From Coriobacteriia bacterium (GTDB taxonomy: Bacteria; Actinomycetota; Coriobacteriia; Anaerosomatales; PHET01), in contig WRDS01000012.1 of NCBI GenBank assembly GCA_009779675.1, positions 1 to 33,799 on the forward strand: a stretch of DNA of 33,799 bases. The letters are read 5' to 3'. Position 1 is the stretch's first letter. Each line of letters begins with the position of its first letter. Shown here one piece after another: positions 9,868-28,506 of this stretch. The notes beneath the pieces were generated by a model. That model did not search any database and was not told the origin of the DNA. It saw only the letters and a program-made list of their open reading frames with translations. The translations under genes were made by a program, and so were the position numbers.

Positions 9868-10362
9868 TCATTTGTCTGTTATATCGTTCCCGGACGGCCT
9901 CAAAATGCGGAGAGACCCTTCTCCGTTGCTAAGCGGGATTGTTTCGTCAAGCTTCAGCATATCCGCATCAAACGTATAGACTTTTGCGACTTTATAGCGC
10001 ATGGCTGTCGCAAGGACAATCGCATCGTATGTCCTCGTCATTAACGAGGAATAATTACGCCTAAGCCGCGCTGCTTCTGAAGTCACCTGCCTATCCATCG
10101 TGCGCCTGATTATGAAAGATCTTTCAAAAAAATCCTCAATGATCTCGAGTTGCCTCGTGATCCTGTCGCACGGCAACTCGTTTATTGATTTGCCGAGTGT
10201 AAGCGCCTCGAGCACTACTATTTCTGGCACCACTATGCGAAGCCTGCCGCTTTTTGCCAACTCAATCATTGGGTGAACGAGAAGAAAGTTCTCGTCATCC
10301 CTTTTAAGGTAGCTAATCACTACATTTGTGTCCCAGACTACAAGCTGAGGACTAGCTGCCAT
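9868..10362 (-). CDS. PIN-domain protein, probable RNase toxin
   Basis: 164 aa with the PIN-domain acidic set: Asp11 in VVWDTNVVISYL, Glu52 in VPEIVVLEAL, Asp113 in TYDAIVLATA, and Asp132/Asp134 in YTFDADML. PIN proteins of this size are usually metal-dependent RNases acting as VapC-like toxins. The start ATG at 10362 lies inside the last codons of the upstream gene (11-base overlap), with AGGGG about 9 bases before it, so the two form a coupled pair. The partner is not a recognisable small VapB-type antitoxin, so a role as toxin is inferred from the domain and pairing only. DNA is less GC-rich than the cobalamin operon. Confidence 0.75.
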   Translation of the reverse strand: MAASPQLVVWDTNVVISYLKRDDENFLLVHPMIELAKSGRLRIVVPEIVVLEALTLGKSINELPCDRITRQLEIIEDFFERSFIIRRTMDRQVTSEAARLRRNYSSLMTRTYDAIVLATAMRYKVAKVYTFDADMLKLDETIPLSNGEGSLRILRPSGNDITDK

Positions 10363-11161: not shown

Positions 11162-11292
11162 ATATCTCACACCCTTAAAGCAATTGCGCTGTCTGGCACA
11201 AGCCCTGCGCGTCAAAAGTCATTACTGCTTTGATGATCGTATCGGAAATTGGATTGCGGCAGCAAGTCAACGGAATCCCCGCAGGTGATCTA

Positions 11293-11368
11293 TGGTGCCC
11301 CCAAGGGAATTCGAATCCCTGTTGCCGCCTTGAAAGGGCGGAGTCCTTGGCCTCTAGACGATGGGGGC
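11293..11368 (-). tRNA. tRNA-Glu (UUC)
   Basis: The minus strand reads acceptor GCCCCCA pairing with TGGGGGC, D-arm ATCGTCTAGAGGCCAAGGAC, anticodon stem CCGCC/GGCGG with loop CTTTCAA (anticodon TTC), and T-arm CAGGGATTCGAATTCCCTT. Discriminator A and an encoded CCA (11293-11295) follow. Confidence 0.97.
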
Positions 11369-11370
11369 AG

Positions 11371-11670
11371 GTCGCACGAAAGAGTACCAAAGACTCTGCA
11401 TAGTGTCACGCGCTCGGCACTGTTCGGCGCTAGCTCGGCGCTGATCTACAGCAAGCAAGCTGTACCAGCGTTATGCAGCTGCACTTGCCTCATGCGCAAG
11501 CGCATGTATGGAACCCGTCTCGCCTCTGCCGCAACAATCATCTTTGCGGCCTCTCGTCTCATGCGAGCGCATGTGTTGAATCCCAAGAAATAGCGTAAAC
11601 TTGCCTAACCTAACGCAAGAACGTACCGGGATAAGGTGCCCGAACAGACAGGCTGGCAACGGGGGGGACA
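11371..11670. other. Intergenic region with two near-identical palindromes before pyrE
   Basis: No gene is seen. CATGCGCAAGCGCATG (11491-11506) and CATGCGAGCGCATG (11560-11573) are perfect palindromic arms, both followed by TGT, with centres 68 bases apart. They lie between tRNA-Glu (opposite strand) and pyrE. No U-run follows, so operators are as likely as terminators. A GGGGGGG ribosome site ends the region just before pyrE. Confidence 0.6.
11381..11409 (-). promoter_or_regulatory. Probable promoter of tRNA-Glu
   Basis: GTGACA (11404-11409), 17-base spacer, TACTCT (11381-11386), ending 12 bases before the mature tRNA 5' end. Spacing and location are right; the -10 is weak. Confidence 0.45.
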
Positions 11671-12267
11671 ATGGCTGATTCGCAGACCGAGGCAGCAAAG
11701 TTCAAGGAGCAACTAAGGCCTCTGGTCAAAAAAGCCCTGATACTCGGCAAGCCGACTGTACTGGCATCCGGCGCAACAAGCAATTTCTATTTTGATGGAA
11801 AGCGCGTTACGCTCAGCGCCGACGGCGCATATCTTTTAGCGCGTTATCTGCTCAGCCACATCCCTGATGACGAGTATGACGCTATCGGCGGCCTGACCAT
11901 GGGTGCCGACCCGATTGCCTCGGCAGTCTGTGCGGTATCGTATACCACGGAGATGCCAAAAACGGCCTTCTATGTAAGGAAAGCGCAGAAGGAGCATGGC
12001 CTCACCAGGCGTATTGAAGGGCCACTTGAGAGTGGCTCGCGGGTTGTGGTGGTCGACGATGTCGCCACGAGAGGCGGCTCGATCATGGAGGCTATCGAGG
12101 CCGTCGAGTCGGAGACGCAGTGTACGGTCACCCGAGTCGTCGCCTTAGTTGACAGGCAACAGGGTGCGCGTGAGCTTTTTGAAGGAAGGGGCTACGTTTT
12201 CGACCCCGTGTTCACAGCCGAGGAACTCGGTGTTCCGTTGGACGACATCCAAGCCGAGCGGGCTTAA
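11671..12267 (+). CDS. pyrE: Orotate phosphoribosyltransferase
   Basis: Converts orotate and PRPP to orotidine 5'-phosphate in pyrimidine synthesis (cytosolic, usually a dimer). Type I PRTase features: SGATSNFYFDGKRVTLS (33-49), the flexible loop YVRKAQKEHG (101-110), and the PRPP-binding signature VVVVDDVATRGGS (125-137). 198 aa is the normal length. The start ATG has a poly-G ribosome site 5 bases upstream. It is monocistronic, flanked by tRNA-Glu and the convergent hicB; its TAA stop shares TTAA with the hicB stop. No other pyr genes are nearby. Confidence 0.96.
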   Translation: MADSQTEAAKFKEQLRPLVKKALILGKPTVLASGATSNFYFDGKRVTLSADGAYLLARYLLSHIPDDEYDAIGGLTMGADPIASAVCAVSYTTEMPKTAFYVRKAQKEHGLTRRIEGPLESGSRVVVVDDVATRGGSIMEAIEAVESETQCTVTRVVALVDRQQGARELFEGRGYVFDPVFTAEELGVPLDDIQAERA

Positions 12268-12971
12268 CGCATCAACCCTGTTCGCTCACTACGCCGACAC
12301 GCATTGTGCCTTCGAGCGAGCTTAAGATTACGCCGTTCTTCCTCACTTCCCTCTGCCCTTCCGACCGCCTGAAGCTTTTCAGGAGCCGCTTTTTGCTCAG
12401 CTGCCTCCTGGCCAAAGACCAGGATCGGAAACTCGATGCCCTCGCTTGCCGGAAGCTCCTTCCACCACCTCACGTAAAGGCGACCCGATAAGGGACAAGC
12501 GTGCCATGGGCGGTCGGCATAAAGGTAGACCTGCTCACCTGCTCGGCCAAGGGAGGGCTCGCCCGAGTCAGACTTCCCGACACCGGGATCATCCTTGTGA
12601 ACCGCATCGAAGCGGTCAAGGACCGACTCTATAGCACGCTGGTTTTCCACGTCCTCGATCTCGCACTCCTCAAACTTTACCCTCGGCGGATTCGCCTCTA
12701 CCTCACGACGGTACTCGTCAAGGTCGATCTCGACCCAGCGCACGATCTCATTTACCTCGTGCGGCGGCTCAGTCGCCAGTGGCTCGGGAGCTGCCTCGCC
12801 GCTGTCCTCCAAGCAAGTGCCGAGCAACCCGATGATGTCATACGCCATCTCAAGCGCATCGTCCACGCCGTTGCCCTGCGTATGCGCGCCGATAAATCCT
12901 GGTACGTTGACGCAGTACCATCCATCATTTTCTCCAGCCGGCGTTAGCACAACCGGGTACTTTTTCTTCAT
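12264..12971 (-). CDS. hicB: HicB-type antitoxin with atypical long C terminus
   Basis: Residues 1-93 are a canonical HicB N-terminal domain: YPVVLTPAGENDGWYCVNVP, GFIGAHTQGNGVDDALEMAYDII, and VRWVEIDLDEYRREVE. HicB normally continues with a ribbon-helix-helix or HTH DNA-binding segment (the VRKTLTIPxWLN type). Here residues 95-235 are instead an acidic stretch, then YADRPWHACPLSGRLYVRWW and a basic Arg-rich tail that I do not recognise. The start ATG has GGAGG 6 bases upstream. It follows hicA by 25 bases, the normal order for this family. Its stop overlaps that of convergent pyrE. Either a real domain replacement or a frameshifted/rearranged 3' half. Confidence 0.8.
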   Translation of the reverse strand: MKKKYPVVLTPAGENDGWYCVNVPGFIGAHTQGNGVDDALEMAYDIIGLLGTCLEDSGEAAPEPLATEPPHEVNEIVRWVEIDLDEYRREVEANPPRVKFEECEIEDVENQRAIESVLDRFDAVHKDDPGVGKSDSGEPSLGRAGEQVYLYADRPWHACPLSGRLYVRWWKELPASEGIEFPILVFGQEAAEQKAAPEKLQAVGRAEGSEEERRNLKLARRHNACRRSERTGLMR

Positions 12972-12996
12972 TTTTTCCTCCAGTGCCTTGCCTGGG

Positions 12997-13170
12997 CTAT
13001 TTTAGCCCCAAGTCTTTCAGTATCTGCTTTGCCGTCCCCTCTTTGATCTCATTATGTCTGGGGACTGCAACGATGATTTTCCCATTTGTCCAGGACTCAT
13101 GCTTCCCGTCATCGCGGATCTTTTGACATTCACCCTGCCTGAGCTTTTTTATTAGATCCCGCTTCTTCAC
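12997..13170 (-). CDS. hicA: HicA mRNA interferase toxin
   Basis: 57 aa, normal for HicA, a double-stranded-RNA-binding-fold RNase that cleaves mRNA and is neutralised by HicB. The pattern is complete: KKRDLIKKL, IRDDGKHESWTNGK with catalytic His24, AVPRHNEIKEGTAKQILKDLGLK. The start is GTG at 13170 with AAGG 6 bases upstream; the longer ATG frame to 13365 has an unrelated N terminus. The usual second residue after the catalytic His is Glu here instead of His or Asp, a minor difference. Confidence 0.88.
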   Translation of the reverse strand: MKKRDLIKKLRQGECQKIRDDGKHESWTNGKIIVAVPRHNEIKEGTAKQILKDLGLK

Positions 13171-13362
13171 CGCACGCCTTTTTTCCTTTCTACACGTATT
13201 GACGGCGATTGAACACAATGCCAGAACAATTTCTGGAAAATTACCCCGTGCTAAACACTGATGCAGGATTCGAATTTGAGGGCTTGAGCGCCTTGGGGGC
13301 TCTCGGAGAGGGGTGCTTACGCTACGCGAATGCTGCGACCAGCATAATTCCCACATTTCAGG

Positions 13363-13392
13363 CAAAACAAAAAACGCCCCTTGTGAGGCGTT
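13363..13392 (-). terminator. Rho-independent terminator of tRNA-Lys
   Basis: On the minus strand, AACGCC and GGCGTT form a stem (extendable by CT/AG-type pairs around the loop) followed by TTTTTTGTTTT. It begins 16 bases after the encoded CCA of tRNA-Lys. Confidence 0.85.
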
Positions 13393-13407
13393 CTCGCAGG
13401 TAGATCA

Positions 13408-13483
13408 TGGTGGGCCGTGTAGGAATCGAACCTACGACCTTGGGATTAAAAGTCCCCTGCTCTGCCAACTGAGCTAACGGCCC
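13408..13483 (-). tRNA. tRNA-Lys (UUU)
   Basis: Acceptor GGGCCGT pairs with ACGGCCC. D-arm TAGCTCAGTTGGCAGAGCA, anticodon loop CTTTTAA (anticodon TTT), T-arm GTAGGTTCGATTCCTAC, discriminator A and an encoded CCA (13408-13410) all fit the minus strand. Confidence 0.97.
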
Positions 13484-13673
13484 CGACTGTCTTGGCTATC
13501 AATCGCACGCGAGCGCACGTGCATCTGCCTACACGCGTGCATGCACCTTATGCTCCGCGCAAACAGCGGCCACCTCCCCCTTTGCAAAGGCGAAGGGCAT
13601 GCGCCAGTGTAGCGACCTGCGCAAAACCGGTCAAATGCGGGGCTTCAGCCAGTGTTTATCTGAACACGATACG

Positions 13674-13698
13674 ATGCGCGATGTGAGTGATCGCGCAT
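13674..13698. other. Strong hairpin between abiEii and tRNA-Lys
   Basis: ATGCGCGAT and ATCGCGCAT form a perfect 9-bp stem with a 7-base loop. It starts 24 bases past the abiEii stop. A second small hairpin (GTGTT/AACAC) is adjacent at about 13652-13667. No T-run follows on either strand, so it may be a weak terminator or processing/protective hairpin. Confidence 0.5.
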
Positions 13699-13721
13699 TG
13701 CAGAAGAAATTAATTTCCGCA

Positions 13722-14579
13722 TTAACACCCAGCATAGAGTTCCCGAATGCCTGTCGCGAGAAGTTCACGGAACTCCTTGCGGCCAATGGTCTTTTCACGC
13801 AGGCCAGCTGGAAGGAACCTTCTCATTTGAGCCTCGAACTCCCGCCCGTTGACGATTGAGCCCAGTTGTTCGGTAACGCGGACGAGACCCGTTTTGAATT
13901 TTTCCTGCTCCCCATAATCGATTTCTTTCTTCTCGCGAAGAATGAGAGCCTCTCGTAGGTTGATGTTCGGACGTCGCATGATCCAATACATGTCCCAAAT
14001 GTCCCGATGGCGGATATGGCCAGAGCAAACAAATGCCTCCAGCTTATCGGCAAGGATCTCCTCTAGGCTTTCAGCGAAAAGGATGGTGTCTCCGTAGGAA
14101 GAGGGAAGCCCCTCGTAGTTGAGCTGCACCATTTTTGGAAGCTTAGTGTATGCAGGGACAGATGCTACTTCCAGTGAGATTTTTTGCGCAGGCAAATCGA
14201 GCCTTTGCGGCGCAGTATTGATTCTAATACTCCACTTCTTAACAAGCGAAGAATCGTTTTTTGGCTCTGCCACATCAACGGCCACAGAATATCTATTAGC
14301 AAGCGCTTGAATAATGCAGCCTTTAAGCTCATCTAGATCACTTGCGGAAAAGTCGACTCCTCCCGCAAAATCAAGGTCTTCGCTGTGCCTCGGCGCTCCA
14401 TAACAGAGCCGAAGGCAGGTCCCGCCCTGGAAGACGAGGTTTGAGAGCAGACCAGACTCCCCCATTGCTCGGATGATCTCGTGATGAAGAAGCTCTTTTT
14501 CAATAACGGGCAGCATCGTCTGTGCGTTGTTCTCAGACGCGAGCTTCTGAGCATATGCTGCGAAATCAAGTACGGCCAT
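13722..14579 (-). CDS. abiEii: AbiEii/AbiGii-type nucleotidyltransferase toxin (type IV TA)
   Basis: 285 aa. Polymerase-beta-like nucleotidyltransferase core: QGGTCLRLCYGAPRHSEDLD, with GGT at 52-54 and the metal-binding Asp68/Asp70, then the lysine motif LADKLEAF and RDIWDMYWI. Homologues transfer nucleotides (e.g. to tRNA) and abort phage infection or arrest growth. The start is ATG at 14579, with GGAGG 6 bases upstream, inside the end of abiEi (14-base overlap); the frame to 14684 reads through abiEi and is rejected. The pairing with AbiEi upstream is the standard operon. Less GC-rich than the neighbouring core genes. Confidence 0.9.
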   Translation of the reverse strand: MAVLDFAAYAQKLASENNAQTMLPVIEKELLHHEIIRAMGESGLLSNLVFQGGTCLRLCYGAPRHSEDLDFAGGVDFSASDLDELKGCIIQALANRYSVAVDVAEPKNDSSLVKKWSIRINTAPQRLDLPAQKISLEVASVPAYTKLPKMVQLNYEGLPSSYGDTILFAESLEEILADKLEAFVCSGHIRHRDIWDMYWIMRRPNINLREALILREKKEIDYGEQEKFKTGLVRVTEQLGSIVNGREFEAQMRRFLPAGLREKTIGRKEFRELLATGIRELYAGC

Positions 14580-15105
14580 CAAGTTCCTCCGTATCGACCA
14601 TAGTGAGATTCCTGCCAACCGAACGCAGGTTTGTGTAAGCGTATTGTTTGCTCGCGATCGGCAGTGGGTGGCCTTCCCGTTCAATCACATTTGCGACGAT
14701 ATCCTCCGCCTTTGCTTTGGTGTGAGTAAACTCGATTACGCCGTAGGGCGTATGGTATTCCCCGCTCCGGCCGGTGGTCATTAGGGTGATCCGATCAACG
14801 GGAATCTGAGAGATGACCCCGTATTGCGAAAGCGCGCTCTCTAGGCTCTCGAAGGTGTAGTCTCCTCTTCGCAGGTTCCTCGCGATATGCTCAAGGGTCG
14901 CCGAACCTATGCGCTGACTGAAGGCAAAGAGGTAGACCCCATGGGCAACGCGTTGAAGGACATCGTTTTTGGTGAGACGCACGAGAGTCTGGTCGAGAGT
15001 CCTCCCCTGCTCATCGAAAACATAGGCCAGGTCGCCCTTGCGGAAAACATAGCGCCCCTGCTTGTCCCAGTGATTTAATCTCTTGATTGCTTCGAATAGC
15101 TTCAT
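14566..15105 (-). CDS. abiEi: AbiEi-type antitoxin / winged-helix regulator (type IV TA)
   Basis: 179 aa, upstream partner of the nucleotidyltransferase. The N-terminal winged-helix segment (1-60) contains FEAIKRLNHWDKQGRYVF, LVRLTKNDVLQRVAHGVYL. The rest fits the AbiEi antitoxin domain (GDYTFESLESALSQYGVISQ, RITLMTTGRSGEYHTPYGVIEF). In characterised systems AbiEi represses its own operon and counters the toxin without stable binding. The start is ATG at 15105, transcribed away from vapBC across a 157-base shared intergenic region. No clear ribosome site or inverted-repeat operator was found. Confidence 0.87.
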   Translation of the reverse strand: MKLFEAIKRLNHWDKQGRYVFRKGDLAYVFDEQGRTLDQTLVRLTKNDVLQRVAHGVYLFAFSQRIGSATLEHIARNLRRGDYTFESLESALSQYGVISQIPVDRITLMTTGRSGEYHTPYGVIEFTHTKAKAEDIVANVIEREGHPLPIASKQYAYTNLRSVGRNLTMVDTEELDGRT

Positions 15106-15198
15106 GCAACATATGGTACACGCAAATACATTGAAAAGCTAGTATTTTGTAGATTGTTCGATTCCCGCACTATCGGCGCTGCTTCCGAGTGCCCAAAT

Positions 15199-15243
15199 TT
15201 GCTTCCCGAAATTCTTATCGATATAATATTCGTTGTACACAAC
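15199..15243 (+). promoter_or_regulatory. Promoter and candidate operator of vapBC
   Basis: TTGCTT (15199-15204), 17-base spacer, perfect TATAAT (15222-15227). Around the expected transcription start lies the inverted repeat GTTGT-AC-ACAAC (15232-15243), well placed for autoregulation by VapB. A second palindrome ATCGATCGAT follows. Confidence 0.75.
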
Positions 15244-15262
15244 ATCGATCGATAGGAAATGC

Positions 15263-15472
15263 ATGGTAACTACTGTCACAATCTCACCTAAGTACCAGGT
15301 GGTCATACCAAAACACATCCGCAAGAAACTCAACCTGCACCCTGGGCAACGCATCCAGGCAGTCGAGTACGACGGTCGCATAGAACTCGTGCCTATGCGC
15401 TCTATCCAGAGCATGAAAGGTTTTCTCAGCGGCATCGACACCTCTGTTCCCCGTGATGGTGACAGGATATGA
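15263..15472 (+). CDS. vapB: AbrB/MazE-fold (VapB-type) antitoxin
   Basis: 69 aa with the swapped-hairpin AbrB pattern: TTVTISPKYQVVIPKHIRKKLNLHPGQRIQAVEYDGRIELVP. The C-terminal SIQSMKGFLSGIDTSVPRDGDR is the usual toxin-wrapping tail. The start is ATG at 15263 with AGGAA 5 bases upstream; a TTG at 15233 would add ten residues without a ribosome site and would fall in the operator. The TGA stop overlaps the toxin ATG (ATGA). Confidence 0.9.
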   Translation: MVTTVTISPKYQVVIPKHIRKKLNLHPGQRIQAVEYDGRIELVPMRSIQSMKGFLSGIDTSVPRDGDRI

Positions 15473-15882
15473 ACGTCGTCGACTCCTGCGGATGGCTGGA
15501 GTTTTTTGCTGCTGGCCCAAACGCTGGGTTCTTTGCCCCGCCACTGTCAGACGCAAGTTCTCTGATCGTGCCTTCAATCAGCATCTATGAGGTTTTCAAA
15601 TGCGTCTTGTTGCGGCGCGACGAGAGCGATGCACTGGAGGCCATCGCCTTGATGCAGCAGGGAACGATCATCGACTTCACGGCTGCCGAGGCGCTCGCAG
15701 CAGCAAAGCTCAGCATCGAACTCGGGCTCCCCATGGCTGATGCGATCATGCTCTCGACAGCGCAGGCACACGGCGCGACTTTCTGGACACAGGACGCACA
15801 CTTCAGCGAAGTGAGCGGCGTGCGGTACATCCCCGCTGATGCCAGGCATGCACCGGCCACACCTCGATGCGCCCGCCGATGA
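15469..15882 (+). CDS. vapC: VapC PIN-domain RNase toxin
   Basis: 137 aa. Catalytic acidic residues of PIN RNases: Asp5 in NVVDSCGWLEFF, Glu41 in SISIYEVFK, Asp91 in LPMADAIMLSTAQ, Asp109 in FWTQDAHF. Normal VapCs end soon after the FxxxxGVxY strand. This one carries an extra Ala/Arg/Pro-rich tail after VRYIPADA, arising from repeated DNA at the 3' end. Coupled to vapB by ATGA. Convergent with purH, whose stop lies 45 bases further on. Confidence 0.92.
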   Translation: MNVVDSCGWLEFFAAGPNAGFFAPPLSDASSLIVPSISIYEVFKCVLLRRDESDALEAIALMQQGTIIDFTAAEALAAAKLSIELGLPMADAIMLSTAQAHGATFWTQDAHFSEVSGVRYIPADARHAPATPRCARR

Positions 15883-17832: not shown

Positions 17833-19002
17833 CTACTCTTGGATCTGCTTCCACTCGCCATCGGTCACCTTGTGGATCGAGATGACCTGCGTCTTGTTGT
17901 CGCCGTTCTCGTCAAAGGCGACCGTGCCGGTCACGCCATCCGAAAGCGTCCCAGTGCGGGCGGCCTCTAAGACCTTGGCGCGGTCAGGGCCAACGCTCAC
18001 AACAGCGTTGATCAGTATCCAAGCGGCATCGTACGCATAGCTGTCGTATGCCTCTGGTGCCTTATTGTACTTCGCCTCGTACCGCGTCTTGAACTCAGCA
18101 CCACGCGGCTGCTGCTCAAGAGGAAGGCCGAGTGCCGTGGCGATATCGCCATTCGCAGCAGACTCGCCAGCAATCTTAACGTACTCGGAAGTGAATATCA
18201 TCTCGCCGCCCATGACCGGAACGGTCACGCCGCCGGCCTTCAACTGCTTGGTGATGAGCGCCCCCTCGGTGTGCGCGCCCGCATAGTAGACGACATCCGG
18301 TGCCTTCGGCTTGATCTTGGTCACCAGCGCCGAGAAGTCCATCTCCTTTGGCTGGATCCGCTCCTCGGAGATGATCTCACCGCCGCCCGCAGTGAATGCC
18401 TTTTTGAACTCTTCCGCCAGGCCTTGCCCATATGGCGTCGCGTCATCTATGAGCGCGACCTTCTTGTATCCAAAGCGTATTGCCGCATCCCCCGCAAAGC
18501 TGCCTTGGGCGTTATCGTTGGCAACGATCCGGCACACATTCGAAAGCCCTTGGGAGGTCAGCTGTGGATTTGAAGAGACCGTGACCATAGCCAAATCCAC
18601 ATCTTTGTACACAGGGGCTGCCGGAATCGAACAACCGGAGTTGAAGTGCCCCACGATGCCGACCACATCGGAATCGCCCACAAGGACGTTTGCGGCGTTG
18701 ACCGCCTGCTTGGGGTCGCCAGCATCATCTTGGGCCTGTATCTCAAACTGATAGCCGGCATCCTTGACTGCCTCTGACTCGTTCGCCTCCTCGATGGCAA
18801 GCAGCACCGCCTGCTGCATGCCCTGTCCATAGATCGCGTTATCGCCGGTTAGAGGTGCTGCAAAGCCGATTTTCACGGTCTGAAGCTCTTTCCCCGAGTC
18901 GATCCCTGGCTCCTCCGGTGTGCTTGACTTGCATCCAGCCACACTTGCAGCAAGCATCGCAACTACGAGGAGAACTGCAATTTTGCGCGCCGACCCTCTC
19001 AT
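17833..19002 (-). CDS. livK: LivK-like solute-binding lipoprotein of an ABC transporter
   Basis: 389 aa, type I periplasmic-binding fold of the branched-chain amino acid/amide family. The N terminus is a lipoprotein signal: basic MRGSARK, hydrophobic IAVLLVVAMLA, lipobox ASVAGC with lipidated Cys24. The mature part has VKIGFAAPLTGDNAIYGQGM, IVGHFNSGCSIPAAPVY, VALIDDATPYGQGLAEEF and YDAAWILINAV. The start is ATG at 19002 with AAAGGGG 5 bases upstream. No permease or ATPase gene is adjacent, and it lies between purN and purH on the same strand with longer gaps (205 and 280 bases), so it probably has its own promoter. The substrate cannot be read from sequence. Confidence 0.92.
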   Translation of the reverse strand: MRGSARKIAVLLVVAMLAASVAGCKSSTPEEPGIDSGKELQTVKIGFAAPLTGDNAIYGQGMQQAVLLAIEEANESEAVKDAGYQFEIQAQDDAGDPKQAVNAANVLVGDSDVVGIVGHFNSGCSIPAAPVYKDVDLAMVTVSSNPQLTSQGLSNVCRIVANDNAQGSFAGDAAIRFGYKKVALIDDATPYGQGLAEEFKKAFTAGGGEIISEERIQPKEMDFSALVTKIKPKAPDVVYYAGAHTEGALITKQLKAGGVTVPVMGGEMIFTSEYVKIAGESAANGDIATALGLPLEQQPRGAEFKTRYEAKYNKAPEAYDSYAYDAAWILINAVVSVGPDRAKVLEAARTGTLSDGVTGTVAFDENGDNKTQVISIHKVTDGEWKQIQE

Positions 19003-19032
19003 TGACACCCCTTTCTTACAAACCAATAGAAC

Positions 19033-19055
19033 CGGTCTTGCCTTCCGCAAGACCG
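19033..19055. other. Hairpin just upstream of livK
   Basis: CGGTCTTGC and GCAAGACCG form a perfect 9-bp stem with a 5-base loop, about 30 bases before the livK start. On the minus strand it is followed by GTTCTATTGGTTT, only weakly U-rich. Could be an attenuator, an mRNA-stabilising hairpin, or the end of the purN transcript. Confidence 0.6.
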
Positions 19056-19207: not shown

Positions 19208-19858
19208 CTACTCCGAGATGCGCACGCGCCCTTCACAGACGCTCACTTTGCCCTCGGCGATCTGCTTGATGACACGTGGGTACAGCCGGTGCTCCACCTC
19301 GTGGATCTTGGCCTCCAGGGATTCGACGGTGTCCCCTTCAGTGATGCGCACCGGCTCCTGGGCGATGATCGGCCCCTCGTCAAAGACCTCGTTCGCGAAG
19401 TGCACCGTCACCCCGGTGACCTTCACCCCATACTCGAATGCGTCCTTGATCCCATGGGCTCCCGCAAAGCTCGGAAGCAGCGCGGGATGCAGGTTAACCA
19501 CGCGGTCAGGGAACCGGTCAAGCACCGACGCGCCAAGGAGACGCATGTACCCGGCAAGCACGACGAGTTCGACCTTGCGCGAGGCAAGCTCGCCGAGGAC
19601 CGCCTTGTTGAACCCTTGGGCCCCCGATCCCGAAAAACGCTCCGGGTCGATAAAGACCGCATCGATGCCGTGGCGCTTTGCGCGCTCAAGCCCATACGCC
19701 TGCCCGCGATCACTTATCACCACCGCGATACGGGCATTCAGCCGACCGGCCTCGATCTCGTCGATGATCGCCTGCAGGTTGGTTCCCGAGCCGGAGACCA
19801 GCACGCCCAGCACGAGCGGGTCTGCCGAGGCGGCTCTTGTTCCCGTCGCCGCGCTCAT
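19208..19858 (-). CDS. purN: PurN, phosphoribosylglycinamide formyltransferase
   Basis: Transfers a formyl group from 10-formyl-THF to GAR. Seen are LGVLVSGSGTNLQAIID (17-33), LAGYMRLLG, and the catalytic triad region VNLHPALLPSFAGAHG with Asn122 and His124, plus Asp160 in FDEGPII. 216 aa, normal length. The start ATG at 19858 forms an ATGA overlap with the purM stop, so purM and purN are translationally coupled. The first 13 residues are a short Ala/Thr-rich extension. Confidence 0.97.
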   Translation of the reverse strand: MSAATGTRAASADPLVLGVLVSGSGTNLQAIIDEIEAGRLNARIAVVISDRGQAYGLERAKRHGIDAVFIDPERFSGSGAQGFNKAVLGELASRKVELVVLAGYMRLLGASVLDRFPDRVVNLHPALLPSFAGAHGIKDAFEYGVKVTGVTVHFANEVFDEGPIIAQEPVRITEGDTVESLEAKIHEVEHRLYPRVIKQIAEGKVSVCEGRVRISE

Positions 19859-20952
19859 GCGTAAACCACCTTTCCAGACCCCTTGACGATCTCGCCTATC
19901 TCAAAGACCTTCTCGCCGGCAGCCCGAAGGCTGGCAGCCGCAACCGGTGCCGCAGCCGGATCAAGTATGAGCGCAAAGCCGATGCCCATGTTAAAGGTCT
20001 TGTACGCCTCATCAGGCGTGAGCGATGCCGCTTCAACGACCGTCTCGATCACTCTTGGCACTGGCCACGAGCCCCGGCGAACGCGCGCATCGCAGTCCTC
20101 GGGCAAAGCGCGGTTGAGGTTCTCGGTTATGCCGCCGCCGGTTATGTGCGCCATCGCCTTGATCGGCATCGCGCCCCCGGTGCCCTCGCCCCCAGTGGCC
20201 TCGCCTGGTGCCATGCCCCCGGTGCCCCCGCTGTGCATGAGGCCGAGCACCGACTTCACGTAGATGCGCGTAGGCTCAAGCAGCGCCTCGCCAAGCGATC
20301 TGCCGCCCAGAGCGAGCCGAGGCAACGCAAGTGCTGACTCAGCCCCGTCGACCTCGACCACAGCCTTGCGCACGAGCGAGAACCCGTTGCTATGCACGCC
20401 GCTCGACGCAAGCCCCAACACGATGTCTCCCGGCACGACCGATGAGCCGTCGACCATCTTTGAGCGCTCGGCGACACCCACACAAAACCCCGAAAGGTCG
20501 TAGTCGCGCTCGGCCATCACACCGGGGTGCTCGGCCATCTCCCCGCCGATGAGCGCACAGCCCGCCTGTCGGCAGCCCTCGGCGATCCCGGAGACGATGG
20601 TGCCCACCAGATCGCTGTCGAGCTTGCCGATGGCGATGTAGTCGAGGAAGAAGAGCGGCTCGGCACCTACGACGAGCACGTCGTTCGCGCACATCGCGAC
20701 AAGGTCGACACCGACCGTGTCGTGTTTGCCGAGCAGCTGCGCCACTCGGATCTTGGTCCCCACCCCGTCGGTGCCCGAAACGAGCACAGGGTCGTCCATC
20801 TCTTTGAACGCCGCCGCCGAGAACAGCCCGGCGAACCCACCGATGCCGCCGATGACCTCGGGGCGATAGGTCGAGCGGACGCTCTCTTTGATGGCGTTTA
20901 CCGCCCGCTCGCCCTCGGCGGTGTCCACGCCAGCAGCCTTATAGGTGATCAT
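19855..20952 (-). CDS. purM: PurM, phosphoribosylformylglycinamidine cyclo-ligase (AIR synthetase)
   Basis: ATP-dependent ring closure of FGAM to AIR. Typical features: N-terminal TYKAAGVDTAEGERAVNAIK, VSGTDGVGTKIRVAQLL, DLVAMCANDVLVVGAEPLFFLDY, CALIGGEMAEHPGVM, AHITGGGITENLNRALP, FNMGIGFALIL. A Gly-rich stretch of about 18 residues (GGTGGMAPGEATGGEGTGG) is inserted before the ITGGG motif, where homologues have a short helix/loop. The start is ATG at 20952 (MITYKAAGVD) because it matches family starts and has AGAGG 5 bases upstream. ATG at 20973 and TTG at 20985 are alternatives. 365 aa. Confidence 0.96.
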   Translation of the reverse strand: MITYKAAGVDTAEGERAVNAIKESVRSTYRPEVIGGIGGFAGLFSAAAFKEMDDPVLVSGTDGVGTKIRVAQLLGKHDTVGVDLVAMCANDVLVVGAEPLFFLDYIAIGKLDSDLVGTIVSGIAEGCRQAGCALIGGEMAEHPGVMAERDYDLSGFCVGVAERSKMVDGSSVVPGDIVLGLASSGVHSNGFSLVRKAVVEVDGAESALALPRLALGGRSLGEALLEPTRIYVKSVLGLMHSGGTGGMAPGEATGGEGTGGAMPIKAMAHITGGGITENLNRALPEDCDARVRRGSWPVPRVIETVVEAASLTPDEAYKTFNMGIGFALILDPAAAPVAAASLRAAGEKVFEIGEIVKGSGKVVYA

Positions 20953-21389
20953 TTCGGCCTCTTTGTCAGCCATTACCCGATCCAACAGCAGCTCCCGAAG
21001 CTCATCCCCAAGGAGAAATGGAGCCCATGCTTATGCTTCTTTGCCGCATCACTGTCTTGCAGCACCATTTTCAACCTTTCTGCGTGCACTTAAGCGCACT
21101 GGTTCGAGGTGCAAATTGATTCGAGGCAATTCCCCAGTATGTTAGCTCGTTCTGGTTGACCGGTTCCCAGGTTTTTCACCTGATGCGTGACATCCAGAAA
21201 AGTCTTGCCAGACGGATTGCAACTTTCAATTTCCAAACTGAATCCCACCATACGGCATAATCAGAACTATTTGCTCCGCAAAACCGCAGGTAGATGATAG
21301 TACTCAATGACCACTTATGCTGTATGGTGGGATTCAGTACCTCCAAGTACTCACTATCGGGCATCAGGTCGTCTGCGAACCTGTCCTGC
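20953..21389. other. 437-base gap between the helicase gene and purM
   Basis: No gene is supported. It contains a 16-base imperfect palindrome GTGCACTTAAGCGCAC (21084-21099). Two direct repeats, TGGTTCGAGG (21100-21109) and TGATTCGAGG (21117-21126), lie 17 bases apart. A separate inverted-repeat element lies at 21238-21337. The first two groups lie about 130-175 bases upstream of purM and may regulate it. No convincing -10/-35 pair was found. Confidence 0.5.
21238..21337. repeat. Inverted-repeat element, 23-base arms
   Basis: Arm CTGAATCCCACCATAC plus seven further bases (21238-21260) is matched by its reverse complement at 21315-21337 with a single mismatch. The arms are separated by 54 bases, giving a 100-base unit. 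No obvious target-site duplication flanks it. It lies 50 bases past the helicase stop. Confidence 0.9.
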
Positions 21390-24300
21390 CTACTGCATGA
21401 AAATATGCCCGTTCTTGTCGCGCACAAGTTTGCCGGATCGAAGCATCTTATCAACCACCCTCTTAATCTGTGATGAGACTTTTGGCCCAACTCGTTTGAA
21501 TCCGAGCACTTTCGCAGCCTCGCGAGTAACATCTTCTTCAGACATGCCGAGTCCAAGCCAAGCGACACGACTGATGGCCTCATCAATCTCTTCAGGCGGA
21601 ACCCACTCAATTTTTTTCTCTGCGCTGTCCAGATCCGAGCGGTCACGCACCATTACTTGAGACTGATCCGCCAGCCAGAGGAAATCTTCGCGAAGCACTA
21701 CCGCCCTCCTAGAGTTCACCGCTTCGTGCATGGCGGATCGCAATTTCGAAAAAACACGCGCTCGGTTTTGCAGGCCAGCAGAATTGGCCACACGACGGAA
21801 AGCAAGCTCGTAATGTATTGGACCCTCTTGCCGAACGACTTGATAAAGCAAATCTGAGAGTTCCGATAATGGTAGACAGAGGAAATACTCGACATCGCAT
21901 TGATAAAACGACACACGGGCTCTCATATACGGCGTGCCAAGCGGAGGTGACTCAGCATCCGCCGAGACCACTTCTCGCTCCGGCGCTCCAGCTGTTTGAA
22001 CGTCCGAGACGATCTCCACAACGTCGTCCTGGCAGCCGTTACCGCCATGAGCTTTCGCACGCTCAATCGCTTCTACCAGCTTCCGATACTGTTGATCAGT
22101 GTTGCGGAACCAATCGGTGCTCCAAATGCGATGGATACGCCAACCAAGCCCTTCGAGCACCGCTTGCCGCAACCTGTCTCTATCTCTAGCCGATCTCGAG
22201 GAATGATATGTAGCTCCATCGCATTCAATTCCCAAGAGATACCGACCGGACTCTCGTATGGCAAGGTCAATGAAGAAGCCTCCGCTGCCAACCTGATGAT
22301 CCACGGAATAGCCGTCGGCCCTTAAACGACGGGCAACCCAATCCTCAAAGGGGGAATCTCCTTCCGCCGCCGTTGCCTGCGGGATGTCCATAATGCCATC
22401 TTTTGCATAGCGAAGATAGGTTTTGAGAGCCTTCACTCCGAGCGACTGCGTTCGGCTCAAATCAATATCATCAGCCGTAATGTTGCTGAACACCTCACAT
22501 CTTTCTCGTGCCCGCGTGATGAGAACGTTCAGCCGCCTCCACCCTCCGTCTTTTGAAAGTGGGCCGAATTGCATTGCAAGGTAGCGTTCTTCGGTATGAC
22601 CGTACCCAACGCTAATGAAGATCACATCCCGTTCGTCACCCTGGACGTTTTCCAGGTTTTTCACGAAAAACGGCTCGTTGGGATGATCCGCGAAGAATCG
22701 TTCTGTCTCAGGATGGTTTCGCCTCAGAAGCTCCATTTGATCTTGGATGATATCGGCTTGCTTTAAGCTGAAGGCCACGATGCCAAGGGTTTTGCCCGGG
22801 AAGGTGCGAGCGTGCCGCATCGCCGCATTGGCAACTGCCTTGGCCTCATCGGGGTTGGTGGCCGTACCACCTCGGTCATAGGCGGTGTTAGGCAGGTAAC
22901 GGAATACCACTCCTGACACCTCATCGCGATCTTTCGGTGCAGGAAAAATTACGAGCTTGTTGTCATAAAACTCTTTGTTCGAAACCGCAATGAGCGAGTC
23001 GTGCCGACTTCGGTAGTGCCACTGCAGCATGCGTTTTGACGCACCCTGCCCCTCGAACAGGCCGAGCACGCTCTCAATATCCGTGGTAGGTATCTGGTCG
23101 CTATCGTCGTCGCTTAATACAGAGTCGAAAACAAGGCTTGGCGGAAGCTGCTTGCTGTCGCCCACCACTACAACCTGATTTCCGCGGATGATGGCTCCAA
23201 ACGCATCCACCGGCTTAACTTGACTAGCTTCATCGAAGACAACCACATCGAACTGCACTGAACTCGGCGGTAGGTACGTCGCAACCGAAAGCGGGCTCAT
23301 CATCATGACGGGCTTAATAGTCGCCACCGCATTCCCGGCTTTTTCCATAAGCTTTCGTACCGATACGTGCCGCCGCTGTTTCTGCGCCTCGCGACGTATG
23401 AAGCCCATCTGACCGCCGGGCTCCCGGTACTGTGGTATTCGACCCCAGTGGGCCTTAAGAACACGCGCACGATTATATTCCAGAACCGTCTTATCGAGTC
23501 GACGGAATTCGGCAAGAATCGAATCGTGTACCACCCCGTCAAACATGCCCAATTGCGGTCGGGAACGAAACGCTTCGTCGAGCAGAGCCAGCGCGTAGCT
23601 TCGTGCGAAGCATGGTACCAGGGCTTGGGGTTCATGCTCCCAGCTCTTCGCGGCAACTGCCGTCGGTTCAAGACCGGGTTGCATACGACACTCGTCAAGT
23701 GCAACATTCAAAGCTGTAACCTTTTCGAGCAACATTTTGTGCTCAGACAAAGAGCGAACGTAGCCAACCCTCTTGTCCAAAGCAGTTTCCAGCGTGGCAT
23801 TGCGAACTCTTGCGGGCAGCTCCAGAAACTCAACGAGATTATGGAACGCGCCCACCCAAGCATCTGCCGCAGATGCTGTTTTCTCAGACAGGCATATCGC
23901 GTCCGAACGATTCAAGGCTGGCAACACACGAGCCGCGAGCTCCAGCGACCCGGATGGCAGCATGCCACTTGCTATTTTATCGCTCATTGAGGCCACCCAC
24001 TTAACGCACGCCTCCAGTTGAGCCCAGTCGCTTTCAGTGCCCGCCCAATTGCAGCCGAGAACCGACTGCGCAACATCCTCATGCTGAGCGAGCGTCATTC
24101 TCGATGCCTGCTCGGATACGATAGCGGCGGTAGCCTCGAGCAGAGCTGCCGCATCCTCAGGAGGCTCTGAGATGAACAGCGATGCAACATGGCGCTTCGC
24201 CTCTCGATACTCAGGTAACAGTCTCCGCCAGAAATGATTGATGTGTGCCTGTATCGCTGCCTGCCATTGCACCACATCCGAGTCCCATGCCTTGGGGAGA

Positions 24301-26084
24301 AGCACCGAATCAAAAGATGCATGGGTCTTGCTGTACACCTTACCTGCGTCTAAAGCTTTTGCAATCACTCCCGTCTGCCAATGCGGGCTTAAAAGGTCAA
24401 CACCAGCAAGCTCTGGAGCGAGACCGATGTGATGTAGCAAGGTACTATCACGACGGAGGGCAACGATCGATTTTGGCAAGGGTCGGTCATCAAGTATTCG
24501 AGCCATCGCTGACATGCATTCATGCACTGCATCATCGCAGCGCTTGAAGCTCTGCACGATTTCATCCAGCCGGTCTTGATCCGATGGGAGCAGCTGACAT
24601 CGCTCTGATGCCCGGTATGGGTTGCCCGTATGCCCAACGGCCTGTAGGCGCTCTGCGAGTTCCCTCACCATGCCGTTATATTTGACAAAGTCGACCTGCG
24701 ACCATGTGAGCATGTGCTCGCTCTTTAGATCGAGGGCATCAACCCCGAGTCGACGGAGCTCTGATTCGCTGAGCATGAACTTGCCCTCAGCCTGTATCGG
24801 AGTGAATCCGCTCTGACCGATTGGAGTGTTGACTGCCGTACAGTAGTCATTCAACCTAGTCCGCTGAGTAGCCAACCGCTCGAAATCCGCTGCCACCTCA
24901 CCTAACTTAGGTTGCCCAAGATCCATCACTCTTTTCAGCTCATCGATGACGGCCTTCTTGTTCGTCTGGTGGCTATGCAGCTCCAAGCATGCGTCACCCA
25001 GACCAATCTCGTCCAAACGACGCTTGACAACCTTAAGTGCAGCCATTTTTTCTGACACGAAAAGCACGGACTTCTTCGCTGCAACCGACTCGGCAATGAG
25101 ATTTATAATTGTCTGAGACTTGCCCGTTCCTGGCGGACCTTGAATGACGAGATGGTGTCCCGCTTTGACCTCCATTAGTGCCAGTGTCTGCGTGCTATCG
25201 GCATCAACAACGTAAAACGAATCCATAGGTGCAAGGAGTTCATCAAGGCACTGATCATCAGAAGCCATCGGGTCGCCATTGGAGAACCCCTCGCCAAGCA
25301 GAGCCCGAATAACCTCGTGTTCGTGTGGCTTAGCATCATCCGGCCAGTTCGCTGGATTAAGATCCTTGAACATCAAGAACTTTGAGAAAGAGAAGAAGCC
25401 GAGCGTTATCCGCTCTTTCTGAACCAACCATCGTCTCATGCAAGATACTGCTTGCTGAACAGAATCGAAATAACAGGCTGCGTCAAAATCCTCCTCATCC
25501 GGTAGCAACGGGTACTCGATACCGAACTCGCTTTTAAGCTTCATTGCAAGCGAGAGATTCTCGCCGATTTCATCCCCGGTCCACGCTGTTTTGAACGAAT
25601 CTTGGGCGTTCTCTCGCGCAAGCTCGACTGGAACTAGAAGCAAAGGTGCATATCGAGGCTCTTCGCTGGAGTCAGATTCATACCACTCCAGCATGCCCAG
25701 CGCAAGGAACAGGGTGTTGACACCTGTCTCCTCGAGGCTACGCCGTGCATCGTAATAACTGGCAAGCAGTCGTTTTGAAAGCTCTGCCTCCGGCAAGCGA
25801 GTGACCAGAGATTTTTGACGCGAGGTGGACGGGTATGTTTCTGTCTCCGCAGTGCCAACATCTCCTTCCTCATCGTCGGCAACGAAACAAAACTTCCCGC
25901 CTCCGCCAACCAATTGAGAGTAGACTGCTTGCGGGTTCGGCGACACGATTTCGATACCGCGTCGGCGAGTGCGCCTATAGTTAAGCAGGGTATTATTCCT
26001 GAGACCTGGATCCAAAAGCTCGCGGCGAGCCGTGTCGAACTTCTCTACGATTGTGTCGTTGGAGCCATCCATAAATTCCGCCAA
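21390..26084 (-). CDS. DUF4011-type SF1 helicase with C-terminal Vsr/DUF559-like nuclease (Hhe-like defence protein)
   Basis: 1564 aa. The N terminus (about 15-290) matches DUF4011 (ARRELLDPGLRNNTLLNYRR, APLLLVPVEL). SF1 helicase motifs: Walker A GPPGTGKS (316-323), DEAS (951-954), GDSKQLPP (975-982), QWHYRSRHD (about 1021), NVQGDERDVIFISVGYG, and NVLITRARER (1186-1195). A very large insertion separates Walker A from DEAS. The nuclease domain follows: SPFEDW (about 1245), Asp1273 in FIDLAI, Glu1287 in GIECDGATYH, ending GWRIHRIWSTDWF. The C terminus resembles DUF3320. Proteins of this layout include the single-gene anti-phage system Hhe; that assignment is from memory. The start is TTG at 26084 with GAGGA 6 bases upstream; ATG at 26072 is possible. 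DNA is clearly less GC-rich than the pur genes, suggesting transfer. Confidence 0.85.
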   Translation of the reverse strand: MAEFMDGSNDTIVEKFDTARRELLDPGLRNNTLLNYRRTRRRGIEIVSPNPQAVYSQLVGGGGKFCFVADDEEGDVGTAETETYPSTSRQKSLVTRLPEAELSKRLLASYYDARRSLEETGVNTLFLALGMLEWYESDSSEEPRYAPLLLVPVELARENAQDSFKTAWTGDEIGENLSLAMKLKSEFGIEYPLLPDEEDFDAACYFDSVQQAVSCMRRWLVQKERITLGFFSFSKFLMFKDLNPANWPDDAKPHEHEVIRALLGEGFSNGDPMASDDQCLDELLAPMDSFYVVDADSTQTLALMEVKAGHHLVIQGPPGTGKSQTIINLIAESVAAKKSVLFVSEKMAALKVVKRRLDEIGLGDACLELHSHQTNKKAVIDELKRVMDLGQPKLGEVAADFERLATQRTRLNDYCTAVNTPIGQSGFTPIQAEGKFMLSESELRRLGVDALDLKSEHMLTWSQVDFVKYNGMVRELAERLQAVGHTGNPYRASERCQLLPSDQDRLDEIVQSFKRCDDAVHECMSAMARILDDRPLPKSIVALRRDSTLLHHIGLAPELAGVDLLSPHWQTGVIAKALDAGKVYSKTHASFDSVLLPKAWDSDVVQWQAAIQAHINHFWRRLLPEYREAKRHVASLFISEPPEDAAALLEATAAIVSEQASRMTLAQHEDVAQSVLGCNWAGTESDWAQLEACVKWVASMSDKIASGMLPSGSLELAARVLPALNRSDAICLSEKTASAADAWVGAFHNLVEFLELPARVRNATLETALDKRVGYVRSLSEHKMLLEKVTALNVALDECRMQPGLEPTAVAAKSWEHEPQALVPCFARSYALALLDEAFRSRPQLGMFDGVVHDSILAEFRRLDKTVLEYNRARVLKAHWGRIPQYREPGGQMGFIRREAQKQRRHVSVRKLMEKAGNAVATIKPVMMMSPLSVATYLPPSSVQFDVVVFDEASQVKPVDAFGAIIRGNQVVVVGDSKQLPPSLVFDSVLSDDDSDQIPTTDIESVLGLFEGQGASKRMLQWHYRSRHDSLIAVSNKEFYDNKLVIFPAPKDRDEVSGVVFRYLPNTAYDRGGTATNPDEAKAVANAAMRHARTFPGKTLGIVAFSLKQADIIQDQMELLRRNHPETERFFADHPNEPFFVKNLENVQGDERDVIFISVGYGHTEERYLAMQFGPLSKDGGWRRLNVLITRARERCEVFSNITADDIDLSRTQSLGVKALKTYLRYAKDGIMDIPQATAAEGDSPFEDWVARRLRADGYSVDHQVGSGGFFIDLAIRESGRYLLGIECDGATYHSSRSARDRDRLRQAVLEGLGWRIHRIWSTDWFRNTDQQYRKLVEAIERAKAHGGNGCQDDVVEIVSDVQTAGAPEREVVSADAESPPLGTPYMRARVSFYQCDVEYFLCLPLSELSDLLYQVVRQEGPIHYELAFRRVANSAGLQNRARVFSKLRSAMHEAVNSRRAVVLREDFLWLADQSQVMVRDRSDLDSAEKKIEWVPPEEIDEAISRVAWLGLGMSEEDVTREAAKVLGFKRVGPKVSSQIKRVVDKMLRSGKLVRDKNGHIFMQ

Positions 26085-26157
26085 TCGGCTTCCTCAACAA
26101 TGTTTTGATAACACAACGTGACCCTGGGCTTCTCCCGTGCGCAACAAGTCACGCGTG

Positions 26158-26186
26158 AATATTTTACTACCTGAGTGACAGGTCAA
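26158..26186 (-). promoter_or_regulatory. Probable promoter of the helicase gene with palindromic site
   Basis: TTGACC (26181-26186), 17-base spacer, AATATT (26158-26163), about 75 bases before the start codon. The inverted repeat ACCTG-AGTGA-CAGGT (26169-26183) overlaps the spacer and -35, as a repressor site would. Confidence 0.45.
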
Positions 26187-26365
26187 ATGCATTCATTCCA
26201 AAGGAGTAATCAGCAGCGTCTCCCAAACTGCACAGCCACCTTAACGTTGGGTTCGATTCAGGCACCTTTATTTCAAAAGTATTGAACCGATTTCAAGTAC
26301 ACTTCTCGTGAGGCAACTTAAGAGCCATCGTCATAAATTTCCATATTGAACAGAGGAGGCCGACT

Positions 26366-26803
26366 ATGTTCTGTAGAAACTGCGGGACGCAGATTCCCGA
26401 CGATAATAAATTCTGCAACGTGTGTGGAGCAACCATGGACACAGCGATCGACGCACAGCCGACAGCTCCGCCGGTAACGCAGGCTCCGACCTCACCGACA
26501 TCACCGCCGCCGTCGGCTCCAGCAGCTTCAGCAGCATCTCCTCAACCCGCCTATGCGCCGCCCCAGCAGCCGCAGCCGACCGCCTGCAGTGCTCCGCTCG
26601 CAAACAGTGAGCCGCTTTCCGTCGGAAGCTATATCGGCATATTCATCCTGTCCGCGATCCCACTTGTCGGCCTCATCGTGCTGCTGGTATGGGCGTTCAG
26701 CAGCAGCACGAACCTGAACAGGAAGAATTACGCCCGAGCCACCCTCATCCTGAGCGTGATCTGCATCGCCGTGTCGTTCCTGTTAGGCGCCCTGGTGGAA
26801 TAG
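26366..26803 (+). CDS. Zinc-ribbon membrane protein, function unknown
   Basis: 145 aa. The N-terminal zinc ribbon has Cys3/Cys6 and Cys17/Cys20 (FCRNCGTQIPDDNKFCNVCG). A Pro/Ala/Gln-rich linker (28-80) follows, then two hydrophobic segments (about 87-111 and 123-143) suitable as transmembrane helices. Such zinc_ribbon_2 proteins with a proline linker and membrane anchor are common in anaerobic Gram-positives and mostly uncharacterised. The start ATG has GAGGAGG 6 bases upstream. It is divergent from the helicase gene (281-base gap) and the only plus-strand gene in the pur region. Convergent with purF. Confidence 0.85.
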   Translation: MFCRNCGTQIPDDNKFCNVCGATMDTAIDAQPTAPPVTQAPTSPTSPPPSAPAASAASPQPAYAPPQQPQPTACSAPLANSEPLSVGSYIGIFILSAIPLVGLIVLLVWAFSSSTNLNRKNYARATLILSVICIAVSFLLGALVE

Positions 26804-27072
26804 CGCACTGGGCTCGCTTGCTTGCCTATTTCCGGTTACGGTAATGCCAGCCGTCAGCCGTGAAGTTGATTGATTGGGAACGCCCTAACAATGCACGTGC
26901 AGGTCAAAAAGACGACCAAGGGGGATGGGATGGATGACGTAAGTAACCCATATGTATCTGGGAGCCTTTGAAAACTTTGGGAACCTTCGCAAAGACATGG
27001 TGCATCTGGGACACTTTGGAGCTGGAGGAGCAAATCGCGCAGAATGGAGCGCCCCTCAGTAGCCTCCACTTA

Positions 27073-28506
27073 TCAGCAGCGCTCTAGGGACATCTTGCCC
27101 TCTCGCACGCTCTCAGAGATCTCGATCGGGTAGTCGCCGTTAAAGCACGCAAGACAGAACCTCTCGGCGGCCTTGCCGGTCGCCCCGACCATGGCATCGA
27201 GCGAAAGGTACGCAAGGGAGTCGGCTCCGATGTGCCTGCGGACCTCCTCGACCGTGTGGGTCGCGGCGATAAGCTGCTCGTGCGTGTCGGTGTCGATGCC
27301 ATAAAAGCACGGCCACGTGACCGGAGGCGAGGTGATGCGCATGTGCACCTCGGCAGCCCCCGCCTCGCGGAGCAGCTGGACAAGCTTGCGCGTGGTGTTC
27401 CCCCGCACGATAGAGTCGTCGGCCACCACAAGCCGTTTCCCGCTGATCGCAGACTTGAGCGGGTTAAGCTTGAGCCGAATTCCCTGCTGACGGATGGTCT
27501 GGCTCGGCGAGATGAATGTCCGACCGACGTAGCGGTTCTTTGCAAACCCTTCGCCGTAGGGCAGGCCGCTTCCCTGGGCAAAGCCGATAGCGGCTGGGAT
27601 GCCCGAGTCCGGCACGCCGATCACAAGGTCGGCGTCGGCGGGTGCCTCGGCGGCAAGGCCCTCCCCCATGCGTCGGCGGGCCTCATGCATCGAACATCCG
27701 TTCATCACGCTGTCGGGACGGGCGAAGTACACGTACTCGAATATGCAAAGCGCGTGATTTCGCGCCGGGACCCCTTGGGCAGCCTCCAGGCCGGCCTCGG
27801 AGATCTTGATGATCTCCCCCGGCTTGATGTCGCGGACGTGCTGTGCGCCCACGATGTCAAGCGCGCAGGTCTCGCTCGTGACCACCCAGCCGTGGTCAGC
27901 GATCCTGCCGAGGACAAGCGGACGCACCCCATTGGGATCGCGAAACGCGTAGAGCGCGTTCTCTGTGATGAGCGTCGTCGCATATGCGCCTTTGATGAGC
28001 TTCATCGACTCGCGCACGCCATCCCGGATGTGGCTGTGCTGCTGCGTGAAAGCGCCCACGAGGGAGGCGATGACCTCGGAGTCGGTGGTCGAACGGAAAC
28101 GGATGCCGCGCCCCTTGAGACCCTCACGCAAGTCATAGGTGTTCACAAGGTTGCCGTTATGCGCGAGCGCAACGATCTGCGTGCCGATGAAAGAGAGATG
28201 CGGCTGCGCGTTCTCCCAGCTTGTGGAGGAGCCGGTGGTCGAGTAGCGGGTGTGCCCGATTGCCACATCGCCCACAAGGGAGTCCAGGTCGCTTTCCTTG
28301 AACACCCGTGAGACCAGGCCGAGGTTTTTTGTGACGGTGACCGTCTCCCCGTCCCCTACGGCGATGCCGGCAGACTCCTGCCCGCGATGCTGCAGCGCAT
28401 GAAGCCCGAAGTACGTGAGCCGGGCAACGTCCTCGCCAGGCGCAAAGACGCCAAAAACGCCACATGCCTCCTCGGGATGGTCAGGGCGTTCGGTCCAGTC
28501 ATCCAT
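27073..28506 (-). CDS. purF: PurF, amidophosphoribosyltransferase
   Basis: First committed purine step: PRPP plus glutamine to phosphoribosylamine. The N-terminal Ntn-hydrolase begins CGVFGVFAPG at Cys15 after a 14-residue propeptide that would be cleaved to free the catalytic Cys. Next come LHALQHRGQESAGIA, IGHTRYSTTG and LAHNGNLVN. The PRTase domain has the PRPP loop LVVADDSIVRGNTTRK. Cys residues of the Fe-S-type enzyme are present (PCFYGID and CLACFNGDYP), so an oxygen-sensitive [4Fe-4S] form is likely. The ATG start overlaps the purL stop by one base (TGATG). 477 aa. Confidence 0.97.
   Translation of the reverse strand: MDDWTERPDHPEEACGVFGVFAPGEDVARLTYFGLHALQHRGQESAGIAVGDGETVTVTKNLGLVSRVFKESDLDSLVGDVAIGHTRYSTTGSSTSWENAQPHLSFIGTQIVALAHNGNLVNTYDLREGLKGRGIRFRSTTDSEVIASLVGAFTQQHSHIRDGVRESMKLIKGAYATTLITENALYAFRDPNGVRPLVLGRIADHGWVVTSETCALDIVGAQHVRDIKPGEIIKISEAGLEAAQGVPARNHALCIFEYVYFARPDSVMNGCSMHEARRRMGEGLAAEAPADADLVIGVPDSGIPAAIGFAQGSGLPYGEGFAKNRYVGRTFISPSQTIRQQGIRLKLNPLKSAISGKRLVVADDSIVRGNTTRKLVQLLREAGAAEVHMRITSPPVTWPCFYGIDTDTHEQLIAATHTVEEVRRHIGADSLAYLSLDAMVGATGKAAERFCLACFNGDYPIEISESVREGKMSLERC

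Follow-up and report, generated by a model that had tools for sequence, protein, structure and literature searches.

In a Coriobacteriia bacterium, the purine genes purF and purM are parted by a helicase-nuclease gene of PDC-S37, a candidate antiviral family. Our preferred reading, to which we give a probability of roughly 0.75, is that this gene is a horizontally gained and probably functional single-gene antiviral candidate, lodged at a permissive joint of the pur cluster that gains and loses accessory genes. The stretch of DNA analyzed, referred to here as the window, is 33,799 nucleotides long.

Anatomy of the purF-purM interval

Profile searches of the window located purC, purQ, purL, purF, purM, purN, and purH, all seven on the minus strand and with purF ahead of purM, as the first-pass annotation had described. 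The right boundary of the interval is purF (27073-28506, minus strand), which carries GATase_6/7 and Pribosyltran domains and is 81% identical to its counterpart in the nearest relative, G001. The left boundary is purM (19855-20985, minus strand), with AIRS and AIRS_C domains and 77% identity to the same genome. Between them lies an interval of 6.1 kb (20986-27072) with a GC content of 0.534. From the purF stop (27073) to the purM start (20985), the only convincing genes are those already annotated there, namely the helicase-nuclease gene (21390-26084, minus strand) and a divergent zinc-ribbon gene (26366-26803, plus strand). One promoter-like and four terminator-like sites were detected, fewer than in shuffled sequences, and we base no claim on them.

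The zinc-ribbon gene encodes a membrane-protein-like product of 145 amino acids, with a Zn_Ribbon_1 match (E = 4.2e-9) and a hydrophobic stretch at the C-terminus as read from the sequence. Elsewhere in the order it has weak matches only, mostly limited to the N-terminal ribbon. This gene may be native. A gene for an ABC substrate-binding protein of the branched-chain amino-acid type (17833-19050) separates purN from purH, so the pur cluster would fall short of a compact operon even if the insert were absent.

A second block of low GC content (about 0.49-0.59) adjoins purH at positions 9868-15882 of the window. It holds a PIN gene, a HicAB-like pair, an AbiEi/AbiEii pair, a second PIN gene, and a phosphoribosyltransferase-like gene, together with tRNA-Glu (11293-11368) and tRNA-Lys (13408-13483), and it reads as a toxin-antitoxin cluster next to the purine genes.

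Identity of the helicase-nuclease

The predicted protein of 1564 amino acids was characterized with Pfam, PADLOC, and NCBIfam models and a four-way alignment. Its Pfam domains are DUF4011, AAA_11/AAA_12 (parts of an SF1 helicase), a restriction-endonuclease-like MTES_1575 domain, and DUF3320; the nuclease is of the Vsr/DUF559-like kind. The match to the PADLOC model PDC-S37 (PDLC05009) scored 1765.5 bits and covered model positions 4-1541 of 1550, that is, the full length. The NCBIfam model of the anti-phage protein ProA (NF058533) gave 1432.5 bits over positions 353-1903 of 1903, short of its curated cut-off of 1500, and nothing in the window protein corresponds to model positions 1-352. The score against Hhe (HheA; NF042953, PADLOC PDLC02194) was 956.4 bits, compared with a curated cut-off of 2000; here the best-matching stretch (833-1347) comprised the second helicase half and the nuclease region. 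Hhe is DUF4011-containing by its NCBI name, and the window protein likewise has DUF4011. Since both NCBI cut-offs were missed, we assigned the protein to PDC-S37 rather than to ProA or Hhe. There is no tested difference in domain order from PDC-S37; what is peculiar, among the 48 genomes of the order compared below, is the purF-purM setting.

In the alignment with three homologues, to which the window protein is 44, 44, and 33% identical, all four proteins share GPPGTGKS, DEASQV, QGDERD(V), TRA, and the residues around ECD..ARDRDRLRQ. We take GPPGTGKS to be the Walker A motif, DEAS, QGDERD, and TRA to be helicase motifs, and ECD..ARDRDRLRQ to mark the nuclease residues. Judged from the sequence, the helicase and nuclease motifs of the window protein are intact. 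Homologues at loci L119 and L123 match the same PDC-S37 model.

The annotation had called the insert defence cargo, and the PDC-S37 match upholds this at the level of a candidate. PADLOC lists the family as a phage-defence candidate only, and a literature search by the name PDC-S37 returned no paper. Among the matches listed, neither DUF3320 nor MTES_1575 was found by name in the phage-defence literature. In a passage of the Hachiman paper, Hhe (HheA) is one of the defence systems said to contain SF1/SF2 helicases (PMC12278908). The antiviral role proposed for the window protein is thus a putative one, inferred from the candidate family to which it belongs. This gene family was known before, and the window gene is an intact but otherwise ordinary candidate for defence.

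Foreign-looking composition and sporadic distribution

The helicase gene has a GC content of 0.536 and a GC3 of 0.564, compared with 0.60-0.65 and 0.70-0.80, respectively, for the seven pur genes. Its codon-use distance from the pur set is 0.141, against 0.065-0.108 for any pur gene. The zinc-ribbon gene, at a GC content of 0.603, is not clearly low, and the helicase gene is therefore the only one that is clearly aberrant in this respect.

A search of 69 genomes of the order gave some match in 12, and a full-length match only in the window's own genome (G000), which is the sole representative of its genus in the comparison. In G040, two helicase fragments (42 and 34% identity) were found; the remaining matches in the order were weaker and partial. 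Across the phylum, 13 of 396 genomes, the window's own included, matched at E ≤ 1e-100. Besides the window, one genome alone (G230) matched nearly end to end, and most of the other matches span the C-terminal half only. Named genomes contributed five loci, all from distant phyla (Longimicrobiales, Thermomicrobiaceae, cyanobacteria, and Melainabacteria). Such a distribution is that of a gene that moves horizontally, and because the family is so sporadic in the phylum while its motifs are intact in the window, horizontal gain is likely. GC content, codon use, and patchy occurrence agree with one another on the foreign look attributed to the gene in the first-pass annotation, GC content and codon bias being indirect signs; neither an arrangement conserved across the class nor core-like GC and codon usage was found.

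Contents of the junction in related genomes

The purF-purM junction was compared across the order. A shared contig for purF and purM was found in 48 of the 69 genomes, the window and 47 relatives; the remaining 21, in which one gene is absent or the two are on different contigs, fall outside the count, and 13 loci (L099-L111) from seven of these (G010, G040, G045, G047, G049, G053, and G063) were left unclassified. In all 48, purF is followed by purM on the same strand, at intervals of 0 to 8276 bp. A conserved ORF, small (about 145 amino acids) and hydrophobic (e.g., L058:7207-7644, minus strand), lies between them in 42 of the 48. One copy was scanned against Pfam and gave no match. This ORF is absent from the window, from the sister genomes G001 and G002, and from three genomes of family f4.

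Classified by content, the 48 intervals hold the small ORF alone (21), a subtilase (10), an LtaS-like sulfatase (7), RHH/PIN genes (6), nothing (2), a metallophosphoesterase (1), or the helicase (1). A further sulfatase copy stands beside a subtilase and is outside the seven counted; in G064, the small ORF, a subtilase, and a sulfatase occur all together. The RHH/PIN genes, assigned by Pfam for L056 and by similarity for the remaining loci, are found in both orientations. The helicase thus occupies the junction in the window's genome only, and in the relatives the site is empty or differently filled.

The subtilases, of about 1430-1720 amino acids, come from genomes of several families (L058, L060-L062, L078, L083, L086, L088, L089, and L096), with or without CWB2 cell-wall-binding repeats; both subtilases that were scanned carry such repeats. 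In G035, two LtaS-like sulfatase genes lie in tandem between purF and purM (L082:2130-6489).

On a tree of purF and purM, the contents of the interval require 19 changes (the minimum is 6, the mean after shuffling is 24.6, and none of 200 shuffles gave a value as low); on this tree the subtilase needs 8 changes and the sulfatase 6. The window's family forms an open group of four genomes, of which the three besides the window all have the sulfatase, and the sulfatase is present at purF-purM in all three sampled sister genera. It has no match anywhere in the window's genome. Representatives of the relatives' interval genes, searched as remnants in the window interval, gave nothing below E = 0.01 (best 0.058), and a search with all gap ORFs produced only three short matches of 24-44 amino acids (E = 0.002-0.008). 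By sequence similarity, then, the genes of the relatives have left no clear trace in the window interval. Between fixed purF and purM flanks, content has changed repeatedly, as expected of a variable site for accessory genes. The expectation for a defence hot spot did not hold: apart from the one helicase and the six RHH/PIN intervals, the other 41 of the 48 contain non-defence genes or nothing extra.

Two loose joints flank purF

The first-pass annotation had also supposed that the insertion had entered a conserved operon, and this is not supported by the spacing of the genes in the order: the purF-purM gap is longer than 1 kb in 25 of the 48 genomes, compared with none of 48 for purM-purN, where the largest gap is 822 bp. 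The purL-purF gap exceeds 1 kb in 25 of the 45 genomes in which the two genes share a contig and strand; these gaps are upper estimates where the purL match is truncated at its end (G014 and possibly others). As purM-purN is tight and purL-purF is loose, the variability does not extend to every gap of the pur cluster, yet it is not special to purF-purM either: purF has a loose joint on each side.

A second order of the class served for comparison: purF was present in 52 of its genomes, and the 30 loci with the best scores were examined. Here purM follows purF on the same strand at 22 of the 30 loci, at 21 of them within 550 bp, and close purF-purM spacing is therefore common in that order. At the remaining eight loci, purM was absent from the 0.1-1.5 kb examined.

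An inverted-repeat element and the search for traces of mobility

The ends of the interval had been proposed as a place to look for repeats, and a search of positions 20900-27200 yielded no direct repeats framing it. Neither gene of the window interval is an integrase by Pfam, and no tRNA lies within this interval. The combination of an integrase with flanking direct repeats, which would mark an integrative mobile element, is thus not present. A 22-nt inverted pair (20961-20982 and 27124-27145, 77% identity) was taken as chance.

About 50 bp beyond the helicase stop, and on one side of the gene only, lies a 102-bp element (21237-21338, no strand assigned) with 24-bp inverted arms and a DNA fold z-score of -8.6. 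Three further full or near-full copies were found in the same genome, at C30:676-777 (L124, 97%), at C73:7680-7783 (L125, 84%) and, in diverged form, at about 6594-6698 of C30, along with single arms on C20 and C79 (L139 and L140). The remaining 68 genomes of the order gave no copy at E ≤ 0.001. The C73 copy lies between genes whose translations, read by eye, correspond to ftsZ and ftsQ. The elements make up a genome-specific, intergenic family of about 100 bp with arms of 23-24 bp, and no autonomous copy was seen. An attC/integron reading was rejected, as no integron core site was recognized by eye. The element looks like the relic of a short non-autonomous transposon that inserts between genes; its target duplication could not be fixed, and a role as carrier of the helicase gene is not implied.

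Weighing the explanations

The differing contents of the 48 intervals, with their 19 changes on the tree, and the occurrence of RHH/PIN genes in either orientation would suit a genuine hot spot of integration, with defence cargo being inserted by a recombinase or a mobile element. The annotation had suggested such a hot integration position. The part of this claim that stands is that the content changes often; the joint is no hot spot for defence, the window interval has no framing direct repeats, integrase gene, or tRNA, the cargo is mostly not defence, and purL-purF is equally variable in length, so that we regard active integration of this kind as unlikely. The looseness of both joints would also fit ordinary decay of gene order, in which the gaps of a loose pur cluster hold old genes that have been differentially lost and the helicase is one more of these. 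The subtilase and sulfatase changes on the tree are possibly losses, and the G064 interval, with its three genes together, would also fit this reading. For the helicase, however, one gain is more economical than many losses, given that the gene is at the site in 1 of 48 genomes, is full length in 1 of 69, and has a low GC content; decay as the source of the present arrangement is accordingly quite improbable.

The genome is a draft in 105 contigs, and the aberrant GC content of the helicase stretch could raise the suspicion that it was joined during assembly to the pur genes of another organism. Such an artefact is very improbable, as both flanks are closest to the same relative, and the copies of the 102-bp element on other contigs, absent from the rest of the order, tie the stretch to this genome and argue against misassembly.

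We therefore favor the horizontal gain of a single antiviral candidate gene at a permissive joint. As the nearest relatives carry the sulfatase there, the gain would have been a replacement of accessory genes, in which the sulfatase and the small hydrophobic ORF gave way to the helicase gene in the window's lineage. With no integrase, tRNA, or duplicated target site found, the most likely route would be homologous recombination between purF and purM, or else stepwise loss and gain. If Hhe-type and other helicase-nuclease defences are taken as a model, by analogy alone, the protein might act as a DNA-translocating sensor whose nuclease domain would cut invading DNA. More tentatively, the joints around purF could form, in this order, a long-lived exchange point within a biosynthetic cluster that is essential, with the purF-purM joint repeatedly taking up cargo by homologous recombination through purF and purM and not by an integrase. 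The essential flanks would then serve as anchors, and the cargo would comprise large surface proteases, sulfatases, and toxin-antitoxin pairs as well as the helicase-nuclease of the window.

Comparison with a known hotspot and significance

According to the relevant passage of PMC10250203, the core defence hotspot cDHS1 of Pseudomonas aeruginosa has a DUF4011 gene as a conserved flank and immune systems as cargo. As far as that passage goes, the two sites are alike in that accessory genes vary between fixed core genes and that a DUF4011 gene is involved. They differ in that the DUF4011 gene of the window is itself the cargo and that in the other genomes the site is mostly devoid of defence genes.

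For the Coriobacteriia lineage studied here, in which this candidate antiviral family is otherwise nearly absent, the window supplies one intact member. It also corrects the hot-spot reading, in that the variability is real, yet neither defence-specific nor confined to purF-purM. More broadly, the order of genes in a pur cluster can persist even as the content of a single joint changes about 19 times across 48 genomes.
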